Below are positions 45,819 to 59,070 of a stretch of DNA of 64,000 nt, one piece after another. The position numbers and the translations under genes were made by a program. This DNA is from Nguyenibacter vanlangensis (GTDB lineage: Bacteria; Pseudomonadota; Alphaproteobacteria; Acetobacterales; Acetobacteraceae), in contig NZ_CP152276.1 in the NCBI RefSeq assembly GCF_038719015.1, positions 3,358,501 through 3,422,500 on the forward strand, read 5' to 3'. The notes under the pieces were generated by a model, which was not told where the DNA came from, did no database searches, and was given only the letters and a program-made list of their open reading frames with translations. Each line of letters starts with the position of its first letter. The stretch's first letter is position 1.

Positions 45819-45867
45819 GGGCGGCTGGCGGCCCCGCCGATCACGTAGCCATAGATGGAACAGGCGC

Positions 45868-45899
45868 GTCTCGATCCGCGCTTCCACGCGGAGCGCAAC
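45868..45899 (-). repeat. Degenerate terminal repeat of CRISPR array 1
   Basis: A 32-base segment with the repeat layout (GTCTCGATCCGCGCTTCCA...) is separated by a 34-base spacer-like stretch (45900-45933) from the first intact repeat. It marks the oldest, leader-distal end of the array. Interestingly it resembles the array 2 repeat as much as that of array 1. Confidence 0.7.
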
Positions 45900-45933
45900 C
45901 GTCGAGTGGCGGGAAAGCCAGATCCCCGCCATG

Positions 45934-47426
45934 GTTTCAATCCACGCTCTCGTACGGAGAGCGACCGTATTTTTCCCACGAATTAGGCGCGTATGACATG
46001 TTTCAATCCACGCTCTCGTACGGAGAGCGACTAAAAGTAGTCACGTTTGCCATTAGAATAATACCTGTTTCAATCCACGCTCTCGTACGGAGAGCGACAA
46101 TCCGGGACCGGTCAGGATCACGGTGCCATCCGGTTTCAATCCACGCTCTCGTACGGAGAGCGACCCGCGACCGATAACCACGGCGCCGGATATGTCTGGT
46201 TTCAATCCACGCTCTCGTACGGAGAGCGACTGGCCTCGCGCGATGGCCACATTCTACCTGGCTGCGTTTCAATCCACGCTCTCGTACGGAGAGCGACCGT
46301 TCGAGGCGCCGTGCGAGGTGATCAACGACGCGTTTCAATCCACGCTCTCGTACGGAGAGCGACCCGTCGTTGCGGGTTTGCGGGAGGGCGCCTCTGTGTT
46401 TCAATCCACGCTCTCGTACGGAGAGCGACATGACCGCAATTGGCCGCGCAATCCTCGAAGCAGTTTCAATCCACGCTCTCGTACGGAGAGCGACGTCGGG
46501 GATACCGGGTTTTGGCAGCGCGGCGCCGTGTTTCAATCCACGCTCTCGTACGGAGAGCGACCCTATGGGTTTGTGCTCTATGCGTTCCCATGGGGGTTTC
46601 AATCCACGCTCTCGTACGGAGAGCGACGCTTTTCGAGCCACCTGCCCGCGTCGCTGAGAAGGTTTCAATCCACGCTCTCGTACGGAGAGCGACACCCGGC
46701 CGCAGCAACCAGTGCGGACTTGGCAACGGTTTCAATCCACGCTCTCGTACGGAGAGCGACGTTCCCGACGATGGAACATGATTTCGACATACCTGTTTCA
46801 ATCCACGCTCTCGTACGGAGAGCGACGGCATTGATGGCATCCTCATTGCCCATCAACTGGTGTTTCAATCCACGCTCTCGTACGGAGAGCGACCAGCAGC
46901 CGGGTTGCGCCCGGCGGCGGCGCTGCGGTTTCAATCCACGCTCTCGTACGGAGAGCGACGGATTGCCCCAGGACGGCGAATAGCCCTTCACGCCGTTTCA
47001 ATCCACGCTCTCGTACGGAGAGCGACGCCCGGGTCAGACTCGGCAGCCGGCCACAGCGCATCGTTTCAATCCACGCTCTCGTACGGAGAGCGACCCTTGA
47101 GGGGAGCCCTTGAGAGAACTGGAGCGATGTTTCAATCCACGCTCTCGTACGGAGAGCGACCAGCGATGGCGCTCTCTCTGGCTGCATGCGACGAGTTTCA
47201 ATCCACGCTCTCGTACGGAGAGCGACGAGCTCTCCCCTGTTTTCCGGGCGCTGGTGCGACGTTTCAATCCACGCTCTCGTACGGAGAGCGACCATAGTGG
47301 TCCAGACCTTCCATGCGGTTCTGATAGTTTCAATCCACGCTCTCGTACGGAGAGCGACGTGTATGATACTGCCCGCGCTGTGCAGGTGTTGGGTGTTTCA
47401 ATCCACGCTCTCGTACGGAGAGCGAC
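45934..47426 (-). CRISPR. CRISPR array 1 (type I-C), 23 repeats
   Basis: There are 23 identical 32-base repeats at about 66-base intervals, with 22 spacers of 33-36 bases. On the minus strand the repeat starts GTCGCTCTCC and ends GTGGATTGAAAC, the type I-C form with stem CGCTCTC/GAGAGCG. The crRNA precursor therefore reads from 47426 down, with the leader next to cas2. Spacers are all different, and none can be assigned to a phage without a search. Open frames that run through the array in both directions are products of the repeat periodicity. Confidence 0.97.
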
Positions 47427-47609
47427 ACCCTTTATGCTATCATCTTGTTCGGTCTTATAAAAACGGAACATTTGCGCGAAATGCATGGCGGTTAGTCCCC
47501 TGGCGAGACGGGCGAGCGCGTTCATATCAGTAAAGCATTGATCGCAAAAAGTATTCCGGCCGCGCGAACCGACCCGGTCCGGCGTGATCGCTTGTGGTTC
47601 GCGCGCACT
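47427..47609 (-). promoter_or_regulatory. Leader of CRISPR array 1
   Basis: A 183-base AT-richer region between cas2 and the first repeat. On the minus strand it holds TTCGCG (47480-47475), GTTTTT (47464-47459) and CAAGATGATAGC (47447-47436), ending nine bases before the repeat. Array 2 has the same motifs at the same spacing. Further out is the inverted repeat GCGCGAACC ... GGTTCGCGC (47562-47604, 25-base interior). Confidence 0.8.
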
Positions 47610-47900
47610 TCAGAACAGCAGCGGCCCGTCCAGGTCCAGAACGGGCTTGGCCCCGACATGCTCGATCCGCTGCCTGCCCTTCGCCCCAAGCTGATAGAAG
47701 CGCAGGCTGTCCTTCGCCGTATCGGCCTCCGCAATCAGGCGGGCACGCAGTTCCGCCCAGCGTGCCGGGTCGACATCGCATTCGAAGACGGAATGCTGCA
47801 CGCGCTGCCCGAAATCGAGACAGGCGCGCGCCACCCGCCGCAACCGACGCCGGCCTGCTGCATCTTCGGTATTTACGTCATAGGTGATCAGGACAAGCAT
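47610..47900 (-). CDS. cas2: CRISPR adaptation protein Cas2
   Basis: A 96-residue ferredoxin-fold protein that dimerises between two Cas1 dimers for spacer integration. The start MLVLITYDVNTEDAAGRRRL contains the conserved Asp of the first strand, and the Arg-rich helix RRLRRVARACLDFGQRVQHSVFE is typical of the I-C group. It starts three bases after the cas1 stop and is the last cas gene before leader 1. Confidence 0.96.
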   Translation of the reverse strand: MLVLITYDVNTEDAAGRRRLRRVARACLDFGQRVQHSVFECDVDPARWAELRARLIAEADTAKDSLRFYQLGAKGRQRIEHVGAKPVLDLDGPLLF

Positions 47901-47903
47901 CGG

Positions 47904-48944
47904 TCATTTCCAGATGAAGGCGGGGTATCCGTCCAGTTCCCCTCGCAAATGCCGCGCCAGCAGCAGGGACTGAAGATGGGCGACCAGCCCGAATGTCACC
48001 GATTCCTCCAGGAAAGGATGGCGGATTTCGTCCTTCTTGCGATCTTGCCACGCGACCAGGACCGCCTTGCGCGCGTCCTCGGTCATCAGGACCGCGCCGC
48101 CGTCGCTGACGGTAAAATCATCCGCGGCGACCTGTCGCCGGTTGATCAGGCTCAGCGCCAGTCGGTCGGCCAGGACCGGCCGCAATTCCTCCATAAGGTC
48201 CAAGGCCAGGCTGCTGCGCCCCGGCCGGTCCGCATGTAGAAACCCGACCTGTGGGTCGAGCCCGACGCTTTCCAGCGCCGACCGGCAATCATGGCCCAGA
48301 ACGGCATAAAGGAAAGACAGAAGGGCGTTGACCCGATCCAGCGGCGGTCGGCGGGTGCGGCCGGCGAAGACGAACGCGCTGTCCTCGACACGGATCAATT
48401 GATTGAATGCGCCGAAATAGACCTGGGCGGCTTCGCCCTCGATCCCGCGTGCCGTATCGATATCCGGCGCCTGTGCGACACGCCGGACGACGTTGGTCAG
48501 GCGCTGTTCGGCATCCTGCAACTGCGCTTGCGCATCAGGCGCCAAGGCTGCCCCGTGGTCGCGCAACGCTCGGCGCAGGACCGTCCGCTGGTTGGCCGCT
48601 TTGGCGGCAATGATATTGCGCACGATGGCCAGGGCACGTGCGCTGTCATCGGCAGCACGGTACTGCGTGCGACGCAGCAGCACGTTGCCGCTGCGCGCTC
48701 CCTCGGCGCGCGCCAGAAAACGGCCCTGCGGCGAAAGCCATGACAGGGTGATGTTCGCTTCGGCGCACGCGCCCATCAGGGCGGGCGACGCCCCGGCATG
48801 TCCGAAACAGATGATGCCGTCCAGCAGATGCAGCGGCGCACGGCCGCGCTCTCGGCCTTCCACCTCCACGACGACATTGGCGCCGTCCTTGCGCAGCCAG
48901 GCATTCTCGGTCGTGACGTAAATGGTATTGAGATGGCGGCGCAC
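47904..48944 (-). CDS. cas1: CRISPR integrase Cas1 (type I-C)
   Basis: Metal-dependent integrase of 346 residues. The N-terminal beta domain (MRRHLNTIYVTTENAWLRKDG) is followed by the helical catalytic domain with Glu in IEGEAAQVYF, His in GFLHADRPGRSSLALDL and the acidic MEELRP. It has the I-C length and order (cas4-cas1-cas2). Together with Cas2 and Cas4 it selects and inserts spacers at both leaders. Confidence 0.96.
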   Translation of the reverse strand: MRRHLNTIYVTTENAWLRKDGANVVVEVEGRERGRAPLHLLDGIICFGHAGASPALMGACAEANITLSWLSPQGRFLARAEGARSGNVLLRRTQYRAADDSARALAIVRNIIAAKAANQRTVLRRALRDHGAALAPDAQAQLQDAEQRLTNVVRRVAQAPDIDTARGIEGEAAQVYFGAFNQLIRVEDSAFVFAGRTRRPPLDRVNALLSFLYAVLGHDCRSALESVGLDPQVGFLHADRPGRSSLALDLMEELRPVLADRLALSLINRRQVAADDFTVSDGGAVLMTEDARKAVLVAWQDRKKDEIRHPFLEESVTFGLVAHLQSLLLARHLRGELDGYPAFIWK

Positions 48945-48950
48945 GGATGC

Positions 48951-49601
48951 TTATCCTTCCTCGTCCAGGCGCGATGCCAGCCAGCGTGCGATCGCGGGTG
49001 GCCGCTCCAGCCGGCGCGGCTGGCACGCATGCACCAGCGAACATTTCTTGCAGGCCGGCCGATATTCGGGACGCGGCGTTTCCTGCCCGGCGATCATCGC
49101 CCGCACGTCCCGCGCCACGCAGGCAGTCAGACGGCGCAATGCGTCGTCGAAGACCACGATGGTGCGGCGGCGCGGCTGGCCATAGAACAGCGCGCCTTCG
49201 GGCACCGGCCGTCCGAACATATCCTCCAGGCACAGCGCCTGTGCGCAAAGCTGGACCTCGTCGGCACGATGGGTCTTGGGGCGTCCGCGCTTGTATTCGA
49301 CAGGATAGGGGATCGCATCGGTGCCCTTGCCGTGGAACTCCACCGCGTCGGCCTTGCCGAACACGCCCAGCGCCAACGAACGGATGACCAGCGACCGGAC
49401 GGTGCGCACGTCCCGCCGCCGGTCGGGCCGCCCATCATCCACACGCTCGTGCAGGATGCGCCCTTCGGCGGTCGCACCATCCTCGGCCCAGATCCGTTCG
49501 ACATGAATCAACGCACATTGCCGGGGGCAGAACAGATAATGCTGCAAGGCCGAGAGCGGGATGAGCGCATCCTCGGCCGCGCCATCCGGTGGCGGACGCA
49601 T
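48951..49601 (-). CDS. cas4: Cas4 PAM-selecting exonuclease
   Basis: RecB-like nuclease of about 216 residues with an iron-sulfur cluster; it trims prespacers and enforces PAM and orientation. The cysteines are FCPRQCALIH at the N terminus and CKKCSLVHAC at the C terminus, and the nuclease core shows GKADAVEFHG and PVEYKRGRPK (catalytic Asp/Glu/Lys). The ATG at 49601 is best spaced from GGTAGG; the ATG at 49607 is also in frame. It begins within ten bases of the cas7 stop. Confidence 0.93.
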   Translation of the reverse strand: MRPPPDGAAEDALIPLSALQHYLFCPRQCALIHVERIWAEDGATAEGRILHERVDDGRPDRRRDVRTVRSLVIRSLALGVFGKADAVEFHGKGTDAIPYPVEYKRGRPKTHRADEVQLCAQALCLEDMFGRPVPEGALFYGQPRRRTIVVFDDALRRLTACVARDVRAMIAGQETPRPEYRPACKKCSLVHACQPRRLERPPAIARWLASRLDEEG

Positions 49602-49608
49602 CCGCATC

Positions 49609-50523
49609 CTACCGTTCGATGATCTCGACCCCGTCGGGTGCGCCGTCATGGTTGACGACGATTTCGTAATCGTCCCACGACCGGGCGGGCGGCCAGTTGT
49701 CGATGGCAGGGCTGCCGACCGGATGCGTGGCGCCCTGATGGGCGCGCAGCACCGTCACTCGATCGAACAGATCCTGCGCCCGCGCATTGCCCAGGGCGGA
49801 GGCATGGCGGAAAATGACCAGCTTGCGCGCCGACATTTCACCCCGCGCGGCCGATCGGTCATGATCGAACATGCCCAGCAGCGCATCCCACAGCAAGTCC
49901 AGGTCGCTGTCGGAAAAACCGGTTCCCTTGACAGGATGGGACGCGAGCGGTGCCGAGACATAGCCATGCATGCGATACAGTCCGTACGGCACGATATGCT
50001 TGCGCCCCATCGTGCGGCCGCCCTTGCTTTCCGCATCACTCTCGGTCGTGGCGGCCAGCCGGGTGATGGAGATCTCCAGCGGCAGGACCGGTTCGACCGA
50101 CCGCGCGAAGGAAAACTGCACCGGCCCGCGCACCTGCCCCGCATTCACGCCGGTCGTCATCACAGCACCGAAGGTCCGGATATCCCAGAAATTGGCGCAC
50201 ATCCAGCGCGTCAGCCCACGGGATTTCGCTTCATCCTTAGGCAGTTTATTGAAATCGCTGGTGGCCTCGGGCATGACGGCCGACCAGGCGCGCTTGTGCT
50301 GGTTGTTCAGCGTCGCGCCCTCGCTCATATAGATCTCGAAGCCCTGCATGTCCGGGCGCGCCAGCGTGATGTAATTGCGCACCTTGCGCTTCAGCGCGAC
50401 ATCCGACACCAGGCCCTGATTGGTTTCCGGGTCCAGTCGCGGCATGTTGCCGGCATCCGGGTCGCCGTTAGGATTGCCGTTGCTGACGTCGAAGAACAGG
50501 ATGAATTCGTGGCGGTTCTGCAT
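49609..50523 (-). CDS. cas7: Cas7c (Csd2), Cascade backbone
   Basis: A 304-residue RNA-binding backbone subunit of the I-C effector, present in several copies along the crRNA. The start at 50523 gives MQNRHEFILFFDVSNGNPNG, the family signature, with DPDAGNMPRLDPET following and the glycine-containing VSDVALKRKVRNYI. It follows cas8c by ten bases. Confidence 0.95.
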   Translation of the reverse strand: MQNRHEFILFFDVSNGNPNGDPDAGNMPRLDPETNQGLVSDVALKRKVRNYITLARPDMQGFEIYMSEGATLNNQHKRAWSAVMPEATSDFNKLPKDEAKSRGLTRWMCANFWDIRTFGAVMTTGVNAGQVRGPVQFSFARSVEPVLPLEISITRLAATTESDAESKGGRTMGRKHIVPYGLYRMHGYVSAPLASHPVKGTGFSDSDLDLLWDALLGMFDHDRSAARGEMSARKLVIFRHASALGNARAQDLFDRVTVLRAHQGATHPVGSPAIDNWPPARSWDDYEIVVNHDGAPDGVEIIER

Positions 50524-50533
50524 CGTTATGGTC

Positions 50534-50968
50534 TCACTCTTCGGTTTCTGCAGTATCGGCGGCGTCCGGCGCATCCTGGTCCGCCACGGCGCCGGCGGGG
50601 CCGCCGATCCGCTCCCGACGCTGGTGGTAATAGCCGATGGCGAATTCGGCCTGGTGTTCCAGCGGCAGCGATCGCGGCAGCGACAGCGGCCCGGCCGGGA
50701 TGATCCGGCCGAAGATCTCTTCCAATTCCTTCTCGATCACCGCCGCCCAGCCGGGTTTCTTCTTGCGGACATTGGCCAGGTGATTCTGTCCGTTTCTAAT
50801 GATAACGGCAAAGATTCCAGCCGGCGTGGCCGAGGCTGCGCCGAAATACCGGTCGCGCATCGACGCCTTCACGCCCGGACCCAGCGCGGCGCGCTGCGCG
50901 AGTTCGTAGACGGCGAACAGCCGTCCCAGTTGGTACCCGATATTGGGATAGTCACGGTCGAGACTCAC
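50534..50968 (-). CDS. cas11c: Cas11c small subunit from an internal start in cas8c
   Basis: An in-frame GTG at 50968 is preceded by a strong AAAGGAG (50984-50978, nine-base gap), far stronger than expected inside a coding region. It would give 144 residues starting VSLDRDYPNIGYQLGRLFAV, exactly where small subunits begin in type I-C systems shown to make Cas11 by internal translation. The helical C terminus fits a small subunit lining the R-loop. The location and ribosome-binding site are seen; production is inferred. Confidence 0.75.
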   Translation of the reverse strand: MSLDRDYPNIGYQLGRLFAVYELAQRAALGPGVKASMRDRYFGAASATPAGIFAVIIRNGQNHLANVRKKKPGWAAVIEKELEEIFGRIIPAGPLSLPRSLPLEHQAEFAIGYYHQRRERIGGPAGAVADQDAPDAADTAETEE

Positions 50969-52354
50969 GGGAATGTCTCCTTTGTCTGAACGGTTCGCGC
51001 CGCGCCGCGCGCGCCGCAATACGGCGCGCAGCACGGCGGCGTGCCAGCCGGTCGCCGGGTCGTCGCCCGCGCGCAGACGCATGAGCGTGGCGGCCAGCCA
51101 TGATCGCGGATAGGGGCTTCCGGCCAGGATCGCGCGCAGGACCTCGCCGGCCAGCAGGGGCGGGATGTTCTCGAACTTCTCCTGCAACGCCACGGTCTTC
51201 GCCAGCAGCAGGTTGACGTCCGGCGGCCGTGCCCAGGGCGACGGCTCCATGCGCATGTCGTCATAATGCGCGGCCAGCCGTCGGGCGAACGCGTCCAGAC
51301 TGTCCGACTGCCAGAACCGGACCGACAGCCGCGCCGCGTTCGGCGACAGTCCCAGCACGTGAAAGCGCGTGCCTGGCTGAATGTCGGGGCGCAATTGCGA
51401 CAGCGGCAACCCGCGCGCCACCGCGTCCAGTTCGTCGCCGATCGCGCGCGCCGCGCCTGCATCGGCGACCGATGGATGCAGCGCCTCCTGGAACCAGTCA
51501 TCGGCGTTCCGTGCCGCCTGCGGGTCGTCCGCTTCGGCCCAGAACACGACCGTCGCATCCCCCACCGGCCGCCGGACGCGGTTGGGCCCGTTGCGGGTCA
51601 GCAGCCGGTTCAGCGCCGCGCCATAGCGAAAGGCCGCGCCCTCCGATGTCGGCGCATTGTCCCCCTGCTTGTGATCATAGGAACAGAACGCATCCAGATT
51701 GAACGAGACCAGGCTGGCCCCGGCCGTCTGCGCGCCGTCCACGCCCTTGATCGAAGGGTGCAAGCGCGCGGGCATCGCCCGCTCGCCGGTCACCAGGCAG
51801 AAAACCGTCCGCGTGTCGGCCGTCTCACGCACCCGCTCGGCCAGGCGCCGGGCGGCGGGGCGGCGATGCAGGTAATCATCGTCGCCGTCCAGGCGAAACA
51901 CGATATTGGCATCCAGCATCTCGGACCGAAAGGGTTCCGCATTGAACCGATCCGGCTGCCAGTTCTCCAGGAAACGCAGAAACGCGACCAGGCCCGCATC
52001 GTTGGTGCCGTTCAGTTGCGCCTGGTGGAACGCCACGAACGCCGCATGCTCCTGCGCCGTCCGCTTGCCGGTGCCAGCCGTTCGGCTCAGCGTATAGGAT
52101 GTTTTGTCCCACAGGAAATTGGGTGCGATGCCGACGGTACGCTTGATCGACGCCGGCACCGGCAGCAGCCGGGGCGCCGGCTTCTTGCCGTTTCGGTCAT
52201 GGCAGTCCAATACGTCCACGACCTGTCCGTCACGGTCGATGATGATGCACCAGCCGATCTTCTCCAGGCTCCAGCCCGGTTCTTCGGCATCGTCCATCCG
52301 GTTGTAATACCCGACCAGCGCTTCCAGCGGGCCGGGGCGATGTGCGGCCATCAT
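50534..52354 (-). CDS. cas8c: Cas8c (Csd1), PAM-recognising large subunit
   Basis: Large subunit of the I-C effector, 606 residues, which reads the PAM and helps recruit Cas3. The N terminus (LVGYYNRMDDAEEPGW) and PNFLWDKTSYTLSR are typical of Csd1. The ATG overlaps the cas5c stop by four bases. The C-terminal 144 codons also form a separately startable small subunit (see the cas11c entry). The acidic C terminus (DAPDAADTAETEE) is variable in the family. Confidence 0.95.
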   Translation of the reverse strand: MMAAHRPGPLEALVGYYNRMDDAEEPGWSLEKIGWCIIIDRDGQVVDVLDCHDRNGKKPAPRLLPVPASIKRTVGIAPNFLWDKTSYTLSRTAGTGKRTAQEHAAFVAFHQAQLNGTNDAGLVAFLRFLENWQPDRFNAEPFRSEMLDANIVFRLDGDDDYLHRRPAARRLAERVRETADTRTVFCLVTGERAMPARLHPSIKGVDGAQTAGASLVSFNLDAFCSYDHKQGDNAPTSEGAAFRYGAALNRLLTRNGPNRVRRPVGDATVVFWAEADDPQAARNADDWFQEALHPSVADAGAARAIGDELDAVARGLPLSQLRPDIQPGTRFHVLGLSPNAARLSVRFWQSDSLDAFARRLAAHYDDMRMEPSPWARPPDVNLLLAKTVALQEKFENIPPLLAGEVLRAILAGSPYPRSWLAATLMRLRAGDDPATGWHAAVLRAVLRRARRGANRSDKGDIPVSLDRDYPNIGYQLGRLFAVYELAQRAALGPGVKASMRDRYFGAASATPAGIFAVIIRNGQNHLANVRKKKPGWAAVIEKELEEIFGRIIPAGPLSLPRSLPLEHQAEFAIGYYHQRRERIGGPAGAVADQDAPDAADTAETEE

Positions 52355-53016
52355 GCGGCCAGGTCCGGACTATCGGCGGCAGGCACCGTCAGCACGCCGT
52401 CTTCCATCTTGGCGCGGAAGAAGCGCGCGGTGCAGCCGTCGGCGAAATCGATGTCGTGCAGCATCCATCCCAGATCGACCGAGCCGGCCGGGTGGTCCGA
52501 CGCGGGCAGTGGCGCGCCCTCGGGCAGCAGGGCGAATTCCGCAGGGAACTCGCGCGTGCCCAGGCACGGGCGGTGGAAACATTGCCCCTGCGCGGCGCGC
52601 CGGTTGAACATGCTGATATGCTTGGCCGGCGTATCGCCGGACCCCGCCTTTTCTGTCATCGTGAAATGAGCCTCGATGACATAGGCGACATCGATCAGGA
52701 TGGTTGCCGCGCGCTGCTGGCGATGATCATCGACATTCAGGCCCAGCCCGTCGGTCCGGCCCGCCGCCATGCCGCGCGCCGCAAGCGCGGCGCTGGCCTT
52801 GGCGCCGACTTCGTTGCGGCGCAAGGACTGGAACCGGATCGGCTTCAGAACATGAATGCGATCGATATGCCAGCGAATTGCCGGCTTCCAATGGATGGCT
52901 TCAAGTATTCCCCGCGCGGCCGAGGGGGGCGGCACGTCATACGACACTCTTTCAGACTTGAGCTCTGGCCTGGTGAAGCAGGCCCGTTCGCCCCAGACAT
53001 GCAGTCGCACTCCCAT
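52351..53016 (-). CDS. cas5c: Cas5c (Cas5d) crRNA-processing endonuclease
   Basis: A 221-residue RAMP protein which in type I-C replaces Cas6: it cuts the repeat hairpin base, leaving an 11-base 5' handle, and stays in the effector. The start MGVRLHVWGERACFTRPELK and SYDVPPPSAARGILEAIHW are characteristic, as is DVAYVIEAHF. It is the first gene of the cas5c-to-cas2 transcription unit, with its own promoter upstream. Confidence 0.94.
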   Translation of the reverse strand: MGVRLHVWGERACFTRPELKSERVSYDVPPPSAARGILEAIHWKPAIRWHIDRIHVLKPIRFQSLRRNEVGAKASAALAARGMAAGRTDGLGLNVDDHRQQRAATILIDVAYVIEAHFTMTEKAGSGDTPAKHISMFNRRAAQGQCFHRPCLGTREFPAEFALLPEGAPLPASDHPAGSVDLGWMLHDIDFADGCTARFFRAKMEDGVLTVPAADSPDLAA

Positions 53017-53051
53017 GGGATGCCTTTCTCCTGGACGTCGCTTGTTTTGAT

Positions 53052-53080
53052 AAATAAAACGATCAATGGGGCTTTGTCAA
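53052..53080 (-). promoter_or_regulatory. Promoter of the cas5c-cas8c-cas7-cas4-cas1-cas2 operon
   Basis: On the minus strand a perfect TTGACA (53080-53075) is followed after 17 bases by TTATTT (53057-53052; TATTTA if read with 18). Transcription would start about 28 bases before the cas5c ATG. It is the best sigma-70-type promoter seen in the window. Confidence 0.75.
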
Positions 53081-53082
53081 GC

Positions 53083-53119
53083 GATGAGTCATACTGACTC
53101 AATCGTCACAAGGAAGGAA
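53083..53119 (-). other. Protospacer-like target of the pseudo-spacer, with TTC PAM
   Basis: TTC (53119-53117) is the usual type I-C PAM. The next bases on the minus strand (from 53116) match the pseudo-spacer at 18 of 24 positions. Mismatches are at 6, 12, 15, 18, 20 and 23, and positions 25-34 do not match at all. Such partial, seed-proximal pairing allows binding without Cas3 cleavage. Confidence 0.7.
53085..53101. promoter_or_regulatory. Operator-like dyad upstream of the cas5c promoter
   Basis: Perfect inverted repeat TGAGTCA-GTA-TGACTCA ends four bases before the -35 box. It looks like a binding site for a dimeric regulator, and it also overlaps the distal part of the pseudo-spacer target. 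Confidence 0.6.
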
Positions 53120-53277
53120 GATTGTCTTGCGCGCGGGATGCCACCGGGCTTGTCTCGCCGCGGGTCAATGGAGCAGAAATGTCTTGTCGGAAGAAAAATT
53201 TTGGCAAGATTGTAATCCGCGTGAAAATCGGTGGAAGAGCTGACATGCGGATCGTGGTCGAGGTAGAACCTCCATAG
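53110..53277 (+). other. Possible small transcript/ORF between target site and pseudo-repeat
   Basis: AAGGAAGG at 53110-53117 is a strong ribosome-binding sequence on the plus strand. A TTG at 53127 (nine-base gap) opens 38 codons, a TTG at 53122 opens 51 codons ending in TAG exactly at the pseudo-repeat, and an ATG at 53138 opens 25 codons containing AGA and AAA codons that are rare in this GC-rich genome. The true frame, if any, cannot be decided. In CreTA modules a short toxin transcript occupies this position. Confidence 0.35.
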
Positions 53278-53338
53278 TCGCCGCATAGCGGCGTGGGTTG
53301 AAATCTTCCGTGTGAAGAATGTGACACTTATGGCGGGT
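53277..53338 (+). ncRNA. Solitary pseudo-repeat plus pseudo-spacer (CreA/CreR-like guide RNA)
   Basis: 53277-53304 is a shortened I-C repeat: GTCGCCGC-ATA-GCGGCG (perfect 6-bp hairpin) followed by TGGGTTGAAAT, nearly the normal 11-base handle TGGATTGAAAC. The next 34 bases (53305-53338), the same length as genuine spacers, end at a 12-bp hairpin in place of a second repeat. The element lies on the strand opposite to cas3 and cas5c. Its first 24 bases match the site just upstream of the cas5c promoter. It resembles crRNA-like regulators that direct Cascade to nearby promoters (CreA antitoxin, CreR). Confidence 0.72.
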
Positions 53339-53366
53339 GATTTCCGGTCCAAACGGACCGGAAATC
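53339..53366. terminator. 12-bp hairpin after the pseudo-spacer and after cas3
   Basis: GATTTCCGGTCC and GGACCGGAAATC flank AAAC, a perfect 12-bp stem. It begins directly where the 34-base pseudo-spacer ends and lies five bases past the cas3 stop, so it could end both the guide RNA and cas3 mRNA. No T tract is present on either strand. Confidence 0.55.
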
Positions 53367-53371
53367 GCTGA

Positions 53372-55708
53372 CTACCACACATTGTTTTCGGAATGACGGA
53401 AGGTCGGGTCGTCAAGTTTCAGGCCCAGCCTGTCATCGTACAGATCCAGCGCGCCGGGATCGAGACAGACGAACCGGTCTCCATAGTCCTGCGCTCGGAT
53501 CGGCTGCACGGCACCAGCGGCCAGCAGCACCCGGCGCGTCTGTGCCGGAACGGGCACGCTATATTGCTGCAGCCGCCGCATCGTGCCGCCGGGCAGCACC
53601 GGCGCATGTTCCAGCGCGTGCAGGACGCGCCGGGCGGTCTCGTCCCATGGGATGATCACCTCTTCCATGACCGTGTCGATCATGCGAAAGGCTTGGTCGA
53701 TCTGCGCGAAGGGAAAATCACGTCCCTGCGCCGCGTGTGCGACGGCCGGCAGGATGGGGAAAACCCGGCCATCGATCCGGGCCGCATCCATTCCCTCATA
53801 GCGCAGTTGAAAATAGAGTTCCCGGAAATAGGCATGCACGGCCTCCAGCCCCAGCACATCCAGGCCCCGGTGCAGGATGGGCCGCGTCGCCTGCCAGAAT
53901 GGCTCCAGCGCCGGCATGATCCGGCGCTTCGACGCATCGTCGGGGTCCGGCGCCTCGAACACCACCACGCGGCCCAAGCCTGCCAGGCGCCCCTCGCGAT
54001 TGCAGCGCCCGGCGGCCTGTGCGATGGAGGCCAATCCCGCCGCAGCCCGCCATACCTCGGGAAAATCGACATCCACCCCGGCTTCGATCAAGCTGGTCGA
54101 TACCAGGCGCACCGGCTGCCCGGCCGTCAGGTCCTGACGAATTTCCTCCAGAATCGCGCGGCGATGCGCCGGACACATCAGGGTCGTCAGATGGCGTGCC
54201 CCGGGCATGGCGCCGATGCGGGTAAATAATTCCTGCGCATGAGCCCGCGTATTGACGATGCACAGCATCTGGTCGCGCTCCGCGAAACGGTCCGCGATGT
54301 CCTGGTCCGAAACCGGCTCCTGCCGCCATTCGACCGAAACCCGCTTCAGCGCCGTATAAAGACCGGCCGGATCGGGGGCCAGTTCGCGCGTGTCGTCGAT
54401 GTCCAGCCCTTCGCGATGCCCGCGCGGCGCAGGCGGCAATGCTTCGTCCTGCCGTCGCAGCGCCGACTGCGTGGCGGTGCACAAAACGATGCTGGTCCGG
54501 TAATTGCGGGCCAGTTCGTCCAGGGCCGCCATGCACGGGCGCAATAGATGGACCGGCAGCGACTGCACCTCGTCCAGCACCACGACGCTTTGGGCGATGT
54601 TGTGCAGTTTCCGCGCCCGGCTGCCGCGCGCGGCGAACAGCGATTCGAAAAATTGCACGCTGGTGGTGACGATGATCGGCGCGTCCCAGTTCTCGGCATC
54701 GCGGCGCAGTTTGCTCAGCCCGTCCGCGCCCTCTTCCTCGCTGTCATTCTCGCTGCCCGGCTGGCGTCTGTCCCAATCGAAGCTGGCGTGATGCTCCAGA
54801 ATATCGTCCGGCGTGCCCAGAGCCGCGCGGAACACCGCCGCCGTCTGTTCGATGATCGAGGTGAAGGGAATGACATAGATGACACGGCGCATGCCGTGCC
54901 GCGCCGCATGTTCCAGCGCGAACTGCAGTGACGTCAGCGTCTTGCCACCGCCGGTCGGCACCGTCAGCGTGAACAGCCCCGGCGCCAGAGCGGCCTTGCC
55001 GACAGCATGGTCCAGAATGGCGCCCCGCAACCGGTTCAGGGGCGTGTCGTCGCGGCGCCGCGTTCGCATGTGGCCGCGTATGGCGTCCAGGTGCGCGGGC
55101 CGCAGTGTGCCGCCGCGCGCTGGCGGCGGCTCCTGCGCCGCCGTGGCATAAAAACGCTCGGTCGCGATGAAGTCGGCATCCGTCAGGCAGGAAAATAGCA
55201 TGCGGGTAAAGAAGGCGACGGTAAAACCGGGATAATCCGGATTGGCGGCCGGCGGCCGCAAGGCCCTCAGGTCCTGCGGGCTCGGCAGGGTCGGGCAGAC
55301 CGATTGCCAGTCCCCAATGGGTTCGATGTCGTAAACCCCGCTATCCAGGCGTTCCTTCAGCGTGCGGTTTTTTCCGCCATGCCCGGCACCGTCCATCAGA
55401 CCGCTGTGGTGGCCGGCAATGGCAAAGGCCAGCAGCCGCCCCAGGGCGCCATACAATTCGACGGCCACGCGGGCGCCGGCCGTGCTGTGGTCGGGGCCGC
55501 GCGCGCCCGCCATTCGGATATAATGCTGATACGCGGCCGAACATTTCCCGATATCGTGCAACAACCCGACCACTCGGCCAAACAATGCGGCGCCGAACGG
55601 CGTGGCGAACGATTCCGCCAGGCCGCCGACATCAGCCAGATGGTCGATCAACGGTTCCCACCGTCGTGGGTCCGGGTCATCGGGTAGCGAATGCGCGAAC
55701 AGGTCCAT
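53372..55708 (-). CDS. cas3: Cas3 HD nuclease-helicase
   Basis: Interference nuclease of 778 residues recruited to target-bound effector. The HD domain is at the N terminus (VGLLHDIGKCSAAYQHY, AIAGHHSGL). The SF2 helicase follows, with Walker A TVPTGGGKT, the DEAD-type box VVLDEVQSLP, SAT-like CTATQSAL and motif VI AQAAGRCNREG. It is separated from cas5c by the 355-base regulatory gap, so it is probably transcribed on its own from a promoter upstream at about 55.8 kb. Confidence 0.96.
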   Translation of the reverse strand: MDLFAHSLPDDPDPRRWEPLIDHLADVGGLAESFATPFGAALFGRVVGLLHDIGKCSAAYQHYIRMAGARGPDHSTAGARVAVELYGALGRLLAFAIAGHHSGLMDGAGHGGKNRTLKERLDSGVYDIEPIGDWQSVCPTLPSPQDLRALRPPAANPDYPGFTVAFFTRMLFSCLTDADFIATERFYATAAQEPPPARGGTLRPAHLDAIRGHMRTRRRDDTPLNRLRGAILDHAVGKAALAPGLFTLTVPTGGGKTLTSLQFALEHAARHGMRRVIYVIPFTSIIEQTAAVFRAALGTPDDILEHHASFDWDRRQPGSENDSEEEGADGLSKLRRDAENWDAPIIVTTSVQFFESLFAARGSRARKLHNIAQSVVVLDEVQSLPVHLLRPCMAALDELARNYRTSIVLCTATQSALRRQDEALPPAPRGHREGLDIDDTRELAPDPAGLYTALKRVSVEWRQEPVSDQDIADRFAERDQMLCIVNTRAHAQELFTRIGAMPGARHLTTLMCPAHRRAILEEIRQDLTAGQPVRLVSTSLIEAGVDVDFPEVWRAAAGLASIAQAAGRCNREGRLAGLGRVVVFEAPDPDDASKRRIMPALEPFWQATRPILHRGLDVLGLEAVHAYFRELYFQLRYEGMDAARIDGRVFPILPAVAHAAQGRDFPFAQIDQAFRMIDTVMEEVIIPWDETARRVLHALEHAPVLPGGTMRRLQQYSVPVPAQTRRVLLAAGAVQPIRAQDYGDRFVCLDPGALDLYDDRLGLKLDDPTFRHSENNVW

Positions 55709-55814: not shown

Positions 55815-55905
55815 CCCGCCGCAGCATCCATTTCGCTGATCCGGCTTTGCCTAGATCTCCACCTGGGCCGGCATGATAGCCTCTGCCTTAATCCACTAAC
55901 GTCTG

Positions 55906-58855
<2,950 letters not shown>

Positions 58856-59070
58856 GCCCTACCAGCTATCATATTGCCTTACCAAGGAAAAACCCTTCTA
58901 TTCCGCGAACGTTCGGCCGGATTGCCGGCGGCGGAAGGAAACGGGTTGGGTGCTCTCGGCCAAGCTGTTGGTTCGTATGCGTTTTAGCCGTGCGCGAACC
59001 GGCCGGGTTTTTTCCGACAGCTTATGGTTCGCGCGCCGGGATGGCGGTGGGATCTGGTCTCCCGACCGGC
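58856..59070 (-). promoter_or_regulatory. Leader of CRISPR array 2
   Basis: A 215-base region upstream of the first repeat. It repeats the leader 1 motifs at identical distances: TTCGCG (58909-58904), GTTTTT (58893-58888) and CAATATGATAGC (58876-58865), ending nine bases before the repeat. The GCGCGAACC ... GGTTCGCGC inverted repeat (58992-59034, 25-base interior) is 136 bases from the array. Confidence 0.8.

Follow-up and report, generated by a model that had tools for sequence, protein, structure and literature searches.

The closest described relatives of the element reported here are CreTA, CreR and CrePA. In the CreTA of haloarchaeal type I-B systems, a degenerate repeat is combined with a guide that matches its target at positions 1–5 and 7–11 next to a TTC PAM; this target precedes a small gene that has a start signal, and the location is inside the cas operon or next to it (PMC8501985, PMC9458426); CreA in these organisms depends on nucleotides 1–5 and 7–11 and on the TTC PAM (PMC8501985). 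The locus described here shares the layout of repeat, guide match, PAM and target. It differs from the I-B units in that it belongs to subtype I-C, its small gene runs to 32 codons instead of 4–6 and its peptide is conserved, its single repeat is followed by a hairpin where that of H. hispanica is followed by a terminator, and the unit is divergent from cas5c. The CreTA of Acinetobacter type I-F likewise occupies a gap of roughly 400 bp after cas3 (cas3-csy1), with its target upstream of a mini-ORF that has a Shine-Dalgarno sequence (PMC10097628); unlike our locus, it uses a CC PAM, its mini-ORF of 33 bp acts as RNA and is divergent from creA, and it has two repeats. CreR of types I-B, I-E and V-A is a crRNA-like RNA whose sequence matches a cas promoter in part (PMC12737573, PMC13131331) and is generally uncoupled from a toxin gene (PMC12737573). 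Our locus resembles it in that the target lies 2 nt from a possible -35 of cas5c, and departs from it in having a conserved candidate ORF between target and guide. In CrePA, too, the cargo that is likely repressed codes for a protein, and CreP typically carries a KilA-N domain (PMC12737573), whereas the 32-aa peptide encoded here gave no match in Pfam. A 2025 review states that type I-B is thus far the sole type in which CreTA has been clarified, and asks whether it occurs in other CRISPR types and which other toxins are coupled to it (PMC12737573); an I-F case has also been published (PMC10097628). No I-C case of either CreTA or CreR was found in those parts of the literature that were searched, the survey of Shmakov et al. 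2023 lying outside that scope. This survey reportedly predicted crRNA-like regulatory elements, including standalone repeats whose spacers show partial matches to cas promoters or to cargo, for example toxin-antitoxins.

The window, by which we mean the whole 64,000-nt stretch of Nguyenibacter vanlangensis (NZ_CP152276.1) that was analysed and whose positions are used as coordinates, encodes on its minus strand a full type I-C operon in the order cas3, a 355-bp gap, cas5c, cas8c, cas7, cas4, cas1 and cas2:

53372..55708, minus strand: cas3 (Cas3c)
52351..53016, minus strand: cas5c
47610..52354, minus strand: cas8c, cas7c, cas4c, cas1c and cas2c
45863-47450 and 55902-58890: two CRISPR arrays, which flank the cas operon

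The array repeats are 32 nt long, end in TGGATTGAAAC in crRNA orientation and have a spacing of mostly 66. Two repeat variants are present in the two arrays that flank this one operon. The repeat at 55902, the outermost one, is degenerate, and near 58130 and 58330 one spacer appears in two almost identical copies.

An earlier note on this DNA had proposed that a mini-CRISPR guide inside the cas locus targets the cas5c promoter region. The parts that it assigned to the guide, namely a lone degenerate I-C repeat with an intact 6-bp hairpin, a 34-base pseudo-spacer and a 12-bp hairpin instead of a second repeat, were all recovered by direct reading and folding, the last with a 12-bp core that extends to 15 bp as folded:

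53277..53304, plus strand: degenerate I-C repeat (psiR), GTCGCCGCATAGCGGCGTGGGTTGAAAT, read directly and folded
53294-53304, plus strand: 11-nt handle of psiR, TGGGTTGAAAT, after the 6-bp stem
53305..53338, plus strand: pseudo-spacer (guide) of 34 nt, CTTCCGTGTGAAGAATGTGACACTTATGGCGGGT
53336..53369, plus strand: strong hairpin in the position of a second repeat

The 6-bp stem of psiR is formed by pairing of 53279-53284 with 53288-53293, and the pseudo-spacer has the length of a typical array spacer. Direct reading found no second repeat after it, the promoter and terminator scan called no terminator in the gap, and a search of 53000-53420 against Rfam returned no match. In Gluconacetobacter diazotrophicus (L009), a hairpin with other arms stands at the matching place after the guide. 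As in CreTA, a putative crRNA-like guide gene with a degenerate repeat is found in a type I cas locus.

The guide has a partly matching site in the same gap, on the opposite strand:

53083..53116, minus strand: target (protospacer) of the guide, 18 of 24 positions matched
53117..53119, minus strand: PAM TTC, assessed by a PAM control in relatives
53083..53104, minus strand: imperfect dyad within the target, GATTGAGTCA-GT-ATGACTCATC, read directly

Recomputation gave exactly the match claimed earlier: positions 1-5, 7-11, 13-14, 16-17, 19, 21-22 and 24 are paired, 6, 12, 15, 18, 20 and 23 are mismatched, and none of the last ten match. The TTC at 53119-53117, directly before the minus-strand target from 53116, was equally confirmed, and TTC is the PAM reported for a Xanthomonas I-C system (PMC8406640). 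The dyad named in the earlier note is present (53104-53083) and imperfect. A dyad is seen in the targets of both species, starting at protospacer position 13 in the window and at position 10 in G. diazotrophicus; the two differ in sequence, that of G. diazotrophicus having perfect 12-bp arms (L009 10612-10640), and they may be an operator, a transcript hairpin or something else.

The guide/target match is beyond chance. Its score was attained by none of 20000 dinucleotide-block shuffles of the gap, and none of 1000 shuffled guides equalled the real guide in L014, a locus whose gap is identical to that of the window at 355 of 355 bases and which is not independent of it. Among the 1727 TTC sites of the window, the target ranked first with a score of 13.5, as against 9.0 for the runner-up. 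The PAM and seed together, TTCCTTCCNTGTGA, have one exact match in the 4.75-Mb genome, which is the target, and four more with one mismatch.

Between the target and the repeat lies a small ORF with a translation start signal:

53179..53277, plus strand: 32-codon ORF encoding MSCRKKNFGKIVIRVKIGGRADMRIVVEVEPP followed by a stop, a candidate creT or toxin-like gene
53170..53173, plus strand: Shine-Dalgarno sequence GGAG, 5 nt before the ATG

Its TAG stop overlaps the first base of the repeat. As in CreTA, the small gene and its start signal are downstream of the target, and all ten seed positions (1-5 and 7-11) match at a TTC site 59 nt upstream of the ORF. The earlier note had allowed for 'a small toxin' as target and had no ORF to offer; a conserved 32-codon ORF now occupies the place between target and repeat. 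A similar peptide is encoded at the same place in seven other alphaproteobacterial loci (L026, L027, L031, L037, L051, L084, L089). These peptides start with basic residues, continue with alternating hydrophobic ones on both sides of a turn, and close with a motif like E-[VI]-E-x-[ED]-P. When the eight loci were aligned, a family assembled by eye, the mean BLOSUM62 score was 39.5 in frame and 15.9-27.9 in the other five frames, and shuffled peptides reached a mean of 17.6 and at most 20.2. The DNA of these loci is only about 50% identical and the pattern of amino acids nevertheless persists across 26-32 codons, so that the peptide appears to be under selection. A family model run against 385 genomes of the class gave no convincing new member, its matches being the window's own copy (4.3e-9) and three weak ones (9.5e-4 to 4.3e-3). 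A low-confidence structure model of the peptide (mean pLDDT 67, pTM 0.25) has the form of a two-stranded hairpin with strands at 10-17 and 21-28.

Related I-C loci were compared for independent variation of guide and target, and the two were found to co-vary. In G. diazotrophicus (L009/L015) the repeat likewise follows cas3, and both guide and target are altered: GTTTTcTGTGA stands against GTTTTaTGTGA there, and CTTCCgTGTGA against CTTCCtTGTGA in the window, with seed positions 1, 4 and 5 changed alike in guide and target (three of three, by eye). Three genomes of one other genus, probably Tistrella, gave a second comparison (L095-L097). Positions 3, 4, 5 and 8 differ between L095 and L096 in guide and target alike (four of four, by eye), and a single target change without a matching guide change is found in L097.

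For the survey of relatives we used named I-C loci, those 80 that ranked best among at least 570 confirmed Cas5c relatives. Every site resembling the 12-base handle within 1300 bp upstream of cas5c was taken as a candidate (201 in the 80 loci), and each was tested for a TTC site in the same upstream stretch. A pair was called strong with at least 9 of 10 seed positions and 12 of 20 scored positions, or with 8 and 15; this threshold was chosen after the per-locus shuffle result, and the controls were scored by the same rule. Strong TTC pairs were present in 19 of these best 80 loci (19 of the 201 candidates) and not in the remaining 61. The other 63 trinucleotides in place of TTC gave 0-2 pairs each, 43 of them none, and 12 permuted handles yielded three strong pairs among 1603 candidates. 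Among 26 lone repeats, 19 had no more than one in 1000 shuffled guides doing equally well; in L019, L038 and L086 guide and target are weakly matched and 18-21 of 1000 shuffles reached them, and L026, L039, L046 and the second repeat of L079 failed the shuffle test. A pair in L026 is seen only with a TTT PAM (by eye).

Mismatches at positions 6, 12 and 18 are the pattern expected of a type I R-loop. Over the 19 pairs, matches at positions 1-5 numbered 19, 18, 19, 19 and 19 and those at positions 7-11 numbered 19, 15, 14, 19 and 17, compared with 7 at position 6, 7 at position 12, 6 at position 18 and background beyond 24. Positions 6, 12, 18 and 24 were outside the selection of pairs, and the remaining positions up to 23 were used in it. 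The handles differed from the array of their own locus by 0.74 mismatches in 11 and from other arrays by 1.33 (raw means, an array having been found in 19 of 24 loci). Strong pairs were found in 18 of the 31 loci with a gap of more than 250 bp and in one of the 48 with a shorter gap.

Three further sets of loci were scanned. In the genome-search set, where whole loci were scanned and L001, L007 and L108 were left out, 9 of 21 loci passed; L002/L003 are of the type counted as L015, and L095-L097, L098 and L107 are new. The pairs of L102 and L106 were discounted as likely chance. In the window's family, 28 genomes have Cas5c and the loci of 25 others were scanned, in part also allowing TTT, with L143 and L149 left out since the start motif was not found and L150 having only 125 bases upstream. 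Seven scanned loci had pairs: L002/L003 of the L015 type, L128 from the window's species, L132, L139 and L140 with the pairs of L016, L084 and L089, and L144, the only new one. None of six plasmid I-C loci (six of 55 records with a Cas5c match) had a pair, and a BLASTN search of 52900-53500 against plasmids gave five records that match in the cas5c part only. As side observations from these sets, the pair of L144 (G459, window's family) comes with a different possible small ORF before the repeat, which starts MRSSFDVSIGLTTPNGIWIGIRL, and L107, a distant Cas5 homologue (E 4.9e-18), has a similar pair with 9 of 10 seed and 15 of 20 scored positions; its divergent Cas5-like gene is perhaps of another subtype.

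Wherever a gene could be assigned among the 19 loci, the order was target, gene, guide. The cargo was a peptide of the 32-codon type in seven loci, a vapBC-like pair in one, other small ORFs in four and mini-ORFs of 9-10 codons with a strong Shine-Dalgarno sequence in three, and none was assigned in four (L016, L017, L073, L079); L095-L097 also have a pair and no assignable ORF. For L065 an ORF was picked by eye over the listed one, and the ORFs of 41 aa in L017 and 13 aa in L073 were left unassigned. In L009 a PIN protein (PF01850, E 6.4e-22) replaces the ORF, with a partner that is MazE-like at E 1.3e-4, below the curated cut-off. The distance from the target edge to the ATG was 40-65 nt in the 11 loci with a peptide or other small ORF, in either orientation, while that from target to cas5c was 66-416 nt in those 11 loci and 66-432 nt in all 19. 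The target edge was 105 nt from vapB and 142-150 nt from the mini-ORF in the mini-ORF class. The unit faces toward cas5c in 15 loci and away from it in four Acetobacteraceae (L014-L017). The best promoter match starts 1-11 nt beyond the target in 10 of the 19 loci, a raw count taken without a shuffled control.

We consider it likely that the element is a CreTA-like unit in type I-C, in which Cascade carrying the guide represses the small ORF and probably also cas5c. This reading is drawn from the guide/target pair, its excess over chance, the co-variation, the ORF, and the recurrence in relatives of the order target, ORF, repeat, spacer, hairpin. The lone repeat and the 34-base pseudo-spacer would give rise to a crRNA-like guide. 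Cas5c would trim the transcript to leave an 11-nt 5' handle, with UGGGUUGAAAU as the predicted 5' end of the RNA, and the strong hairpin would cap the 3' end in place of a second repeat. Cascade would be directed by such a guide to the partial match and its TTC at 53083-53119, where pairing at positions 1-5 and 7-11, and partly up to 24, would permit binding and the unmatched far end would keep Cas3 from cutting. Bound Cascade would then block RNA polymerase between the divergent 32-codon ORF and cas5c. On loss of Cascade, on its titration by crRNAs or on its inhibition by an anti-CRISPR, the levels of cas5c and of the small protein would increase jointly, so that repair would be attempted first and growth arrest by the small protein would follow if Cascade stayed absent; the cell would thereby sense the loss of its own immune complex. 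The growth-arrest step is inferred by analogy with CreTA and from the vapBC-like pair in the same place in G. diazotrophicus. Points that speak against the CreTA-like reading are the weak promoter signals of both genes, the 61 surveyed loci and six plasmid loci that lack such a pair, the loci that have a pair and no assignable ORF, and the target change in L097 to which the guide does not correspond.

Which gene is switched in the window was considered from the promoter-like sequences around the target:

53075..53080, minus strand: TTGACA, possible -35 of cas5c, read directly, with a weak -10
53122..53127, plus strand: TTGTCT, weak -35-like sequence for the ORF, read directly, 2 nt after the target/PAM edge
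53201..53228, plus strand: promoter-like TTGGCA-16-GAAAAT inside the ORF, from the promoter scan

No recognisable -10 accompanies TTGTCT, the scan reported neither TTGTCT nor TTGACA, and no good promoter for the ORF was recognised in the window. The site inside the ORF is at chance level (1 found, 0.4 expected, sd 0.7) and could drive the guide alone. The TTGACA, which the earlier note had placed next to the site, indeed begins 2 nt past the far edge of the target. Counted from the target edges, the ORF begins after 59 nt and cas5c after 66 nt, and both genes may therefore be repressed in the window; with TTGACA facing cas5c at this distance, one bound Cascade could block both divergent promoters.

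The main rival to a CreTA-like unit is that the guide holds down the cas5c operon only, as a pure CreR, with the 32-codon ORF as a leader or bystander. On the cas5c side, a perfect TTGACA is placed relative to the target as the small-ORF promoters are in other loci, and at this spacing of 2 nt the gene truly targeted in the window could be cas5c by itself. L079 and L095-L097, in which promoter, repeat and cas5c follow one another and no ORF could be assigned, look like plain CreR, and CreR is itself described in types I-B, I-E and V-A (PMC13131331). We nevertheless judge this reading to be rather improbable, since the peptide is conserved far beyond its nucleotides, the distance from the target is constant to the ORF and not to cas5c, and in a close relative the ORF gives way to a vapBC-like pair. 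The constant spacing to the small gene, together with the flips of orientation, points to the small gene as the switched gene. The earlier assignment of the target to the cas5c promoter is compatible with position (a possible -35, TTGACA, at 2 nt and cas5c at 66 nt) and not with the spacing across loci. The proposal of a crRNA-like guide is supported by the seed-type, incomplete match at a TTC site between cas3 and cas5c and by the co-variation, whereas a target consisting of cas5c alone is half the picture. From the spacing and the flips, the shared position of the target and the loci that lack an ORF, our reading is that I-C systems span the range between CreR and CreTA, both being probably combined in the window.

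It is unlikely, in our estimate, that the ORF matters as an RNA, through its strong start signal and rare codons, and not as a peptide; this is a sub-case of the CreTA-like reading and the likelihoods of the two overlap. The CreT toxins described in two studies (PMC10097628, PMC8501985) act as RNA despite their mini-ORFs, and L067, L076 and L088 have ORFs of 9-10 codons with strong Shine-Dalgarno sequences and AGA/AGG codons. The window's family, on the other hand, keeps its amino-acid pattern over 26-32 codons at about 50% nucleotide identity, which an RNA toxin would not need.

The remaining explanations were rejected. A decayed array remnant, that is, an old repeat with a chance or ancestral self-match and no function, would fit the single degenerate repeat with no second one and is very improbable in view of the specificity of PAM, handle and seed, the co-variation, and the recurrence in distant Proteobacteria. 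An anti-CRISPR RNA of the phage type (Racr), in which a lone repeat causes Cascade to assemble wrongly, has a precedent in a lone I-C repeat with anti-CRISPR activity described from a prophage (PMC10651486). It is scarcely credible here: the element lies inside a cas locus, its target is matched, its spacer has the usual length, and units of this kind recur in the cas3-cas5c gap of other hosts. A chance match was dismissed on the shuffles of gap and guides, the one exact match in the genome, and the PAM and handle controls.

Returning to the CreTA-like reading, we tentatively put forward, as a possibility somewhat short of even, that the cas3-cas5c gap of proteobacterial type I-C systems houses a guard of the CreTA type whose cargo can be exchanged, the cargo being a new family of beta-hairpin proteins of 26-32 aa that are true protein toxins, small hydrophobic proteins (judged by eye), mini-ORF RNAs or VapBC. 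A single guide would, in Nguyenibacter and Gluconacetobacter, control both the toxin and the cas genes through one divergent promoter that they share, and one Cascade-occupied site would report the level of Cascade, make more of it, and kill or arrest the cell on failure. For subtype I-C, the survey offers 19 candidate units in the best 80 of at least 570 relatives, with testable pairs, several kinds of cargo and a peptide family without a Pfam match. Units of this kind would help to explain the long cas3-cas5c gaps and, if true, would suggest how cells guard I-C against anti-CRISPRs.

Several minor observations concern the gap in other hosts. A GIY-YIG-like small ORF lies in the cas3-cas5c gap of L056, L063, L078, L087, L091 and the plasmid locus L121 (by eye), all without a strong pair, and is another accessory gene at this insertion point. 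L019 and L038, which come from different hosts, have in common AAAGGAGxAGCGCTATGTGG..CATAGCC before a degenerate repeat upstream of cas5c. Lastly, L067, L076 and L088 display a CreT-like layout upstream of cas5c, in which a promoter adjoins the target and is followed by a 5' hairpin (judged by eye), a strong Shine-Dalgarno sequence and an ORF of 9-10 codons containing AGA/AGG codons, with a tandem AGG AGA in L067.
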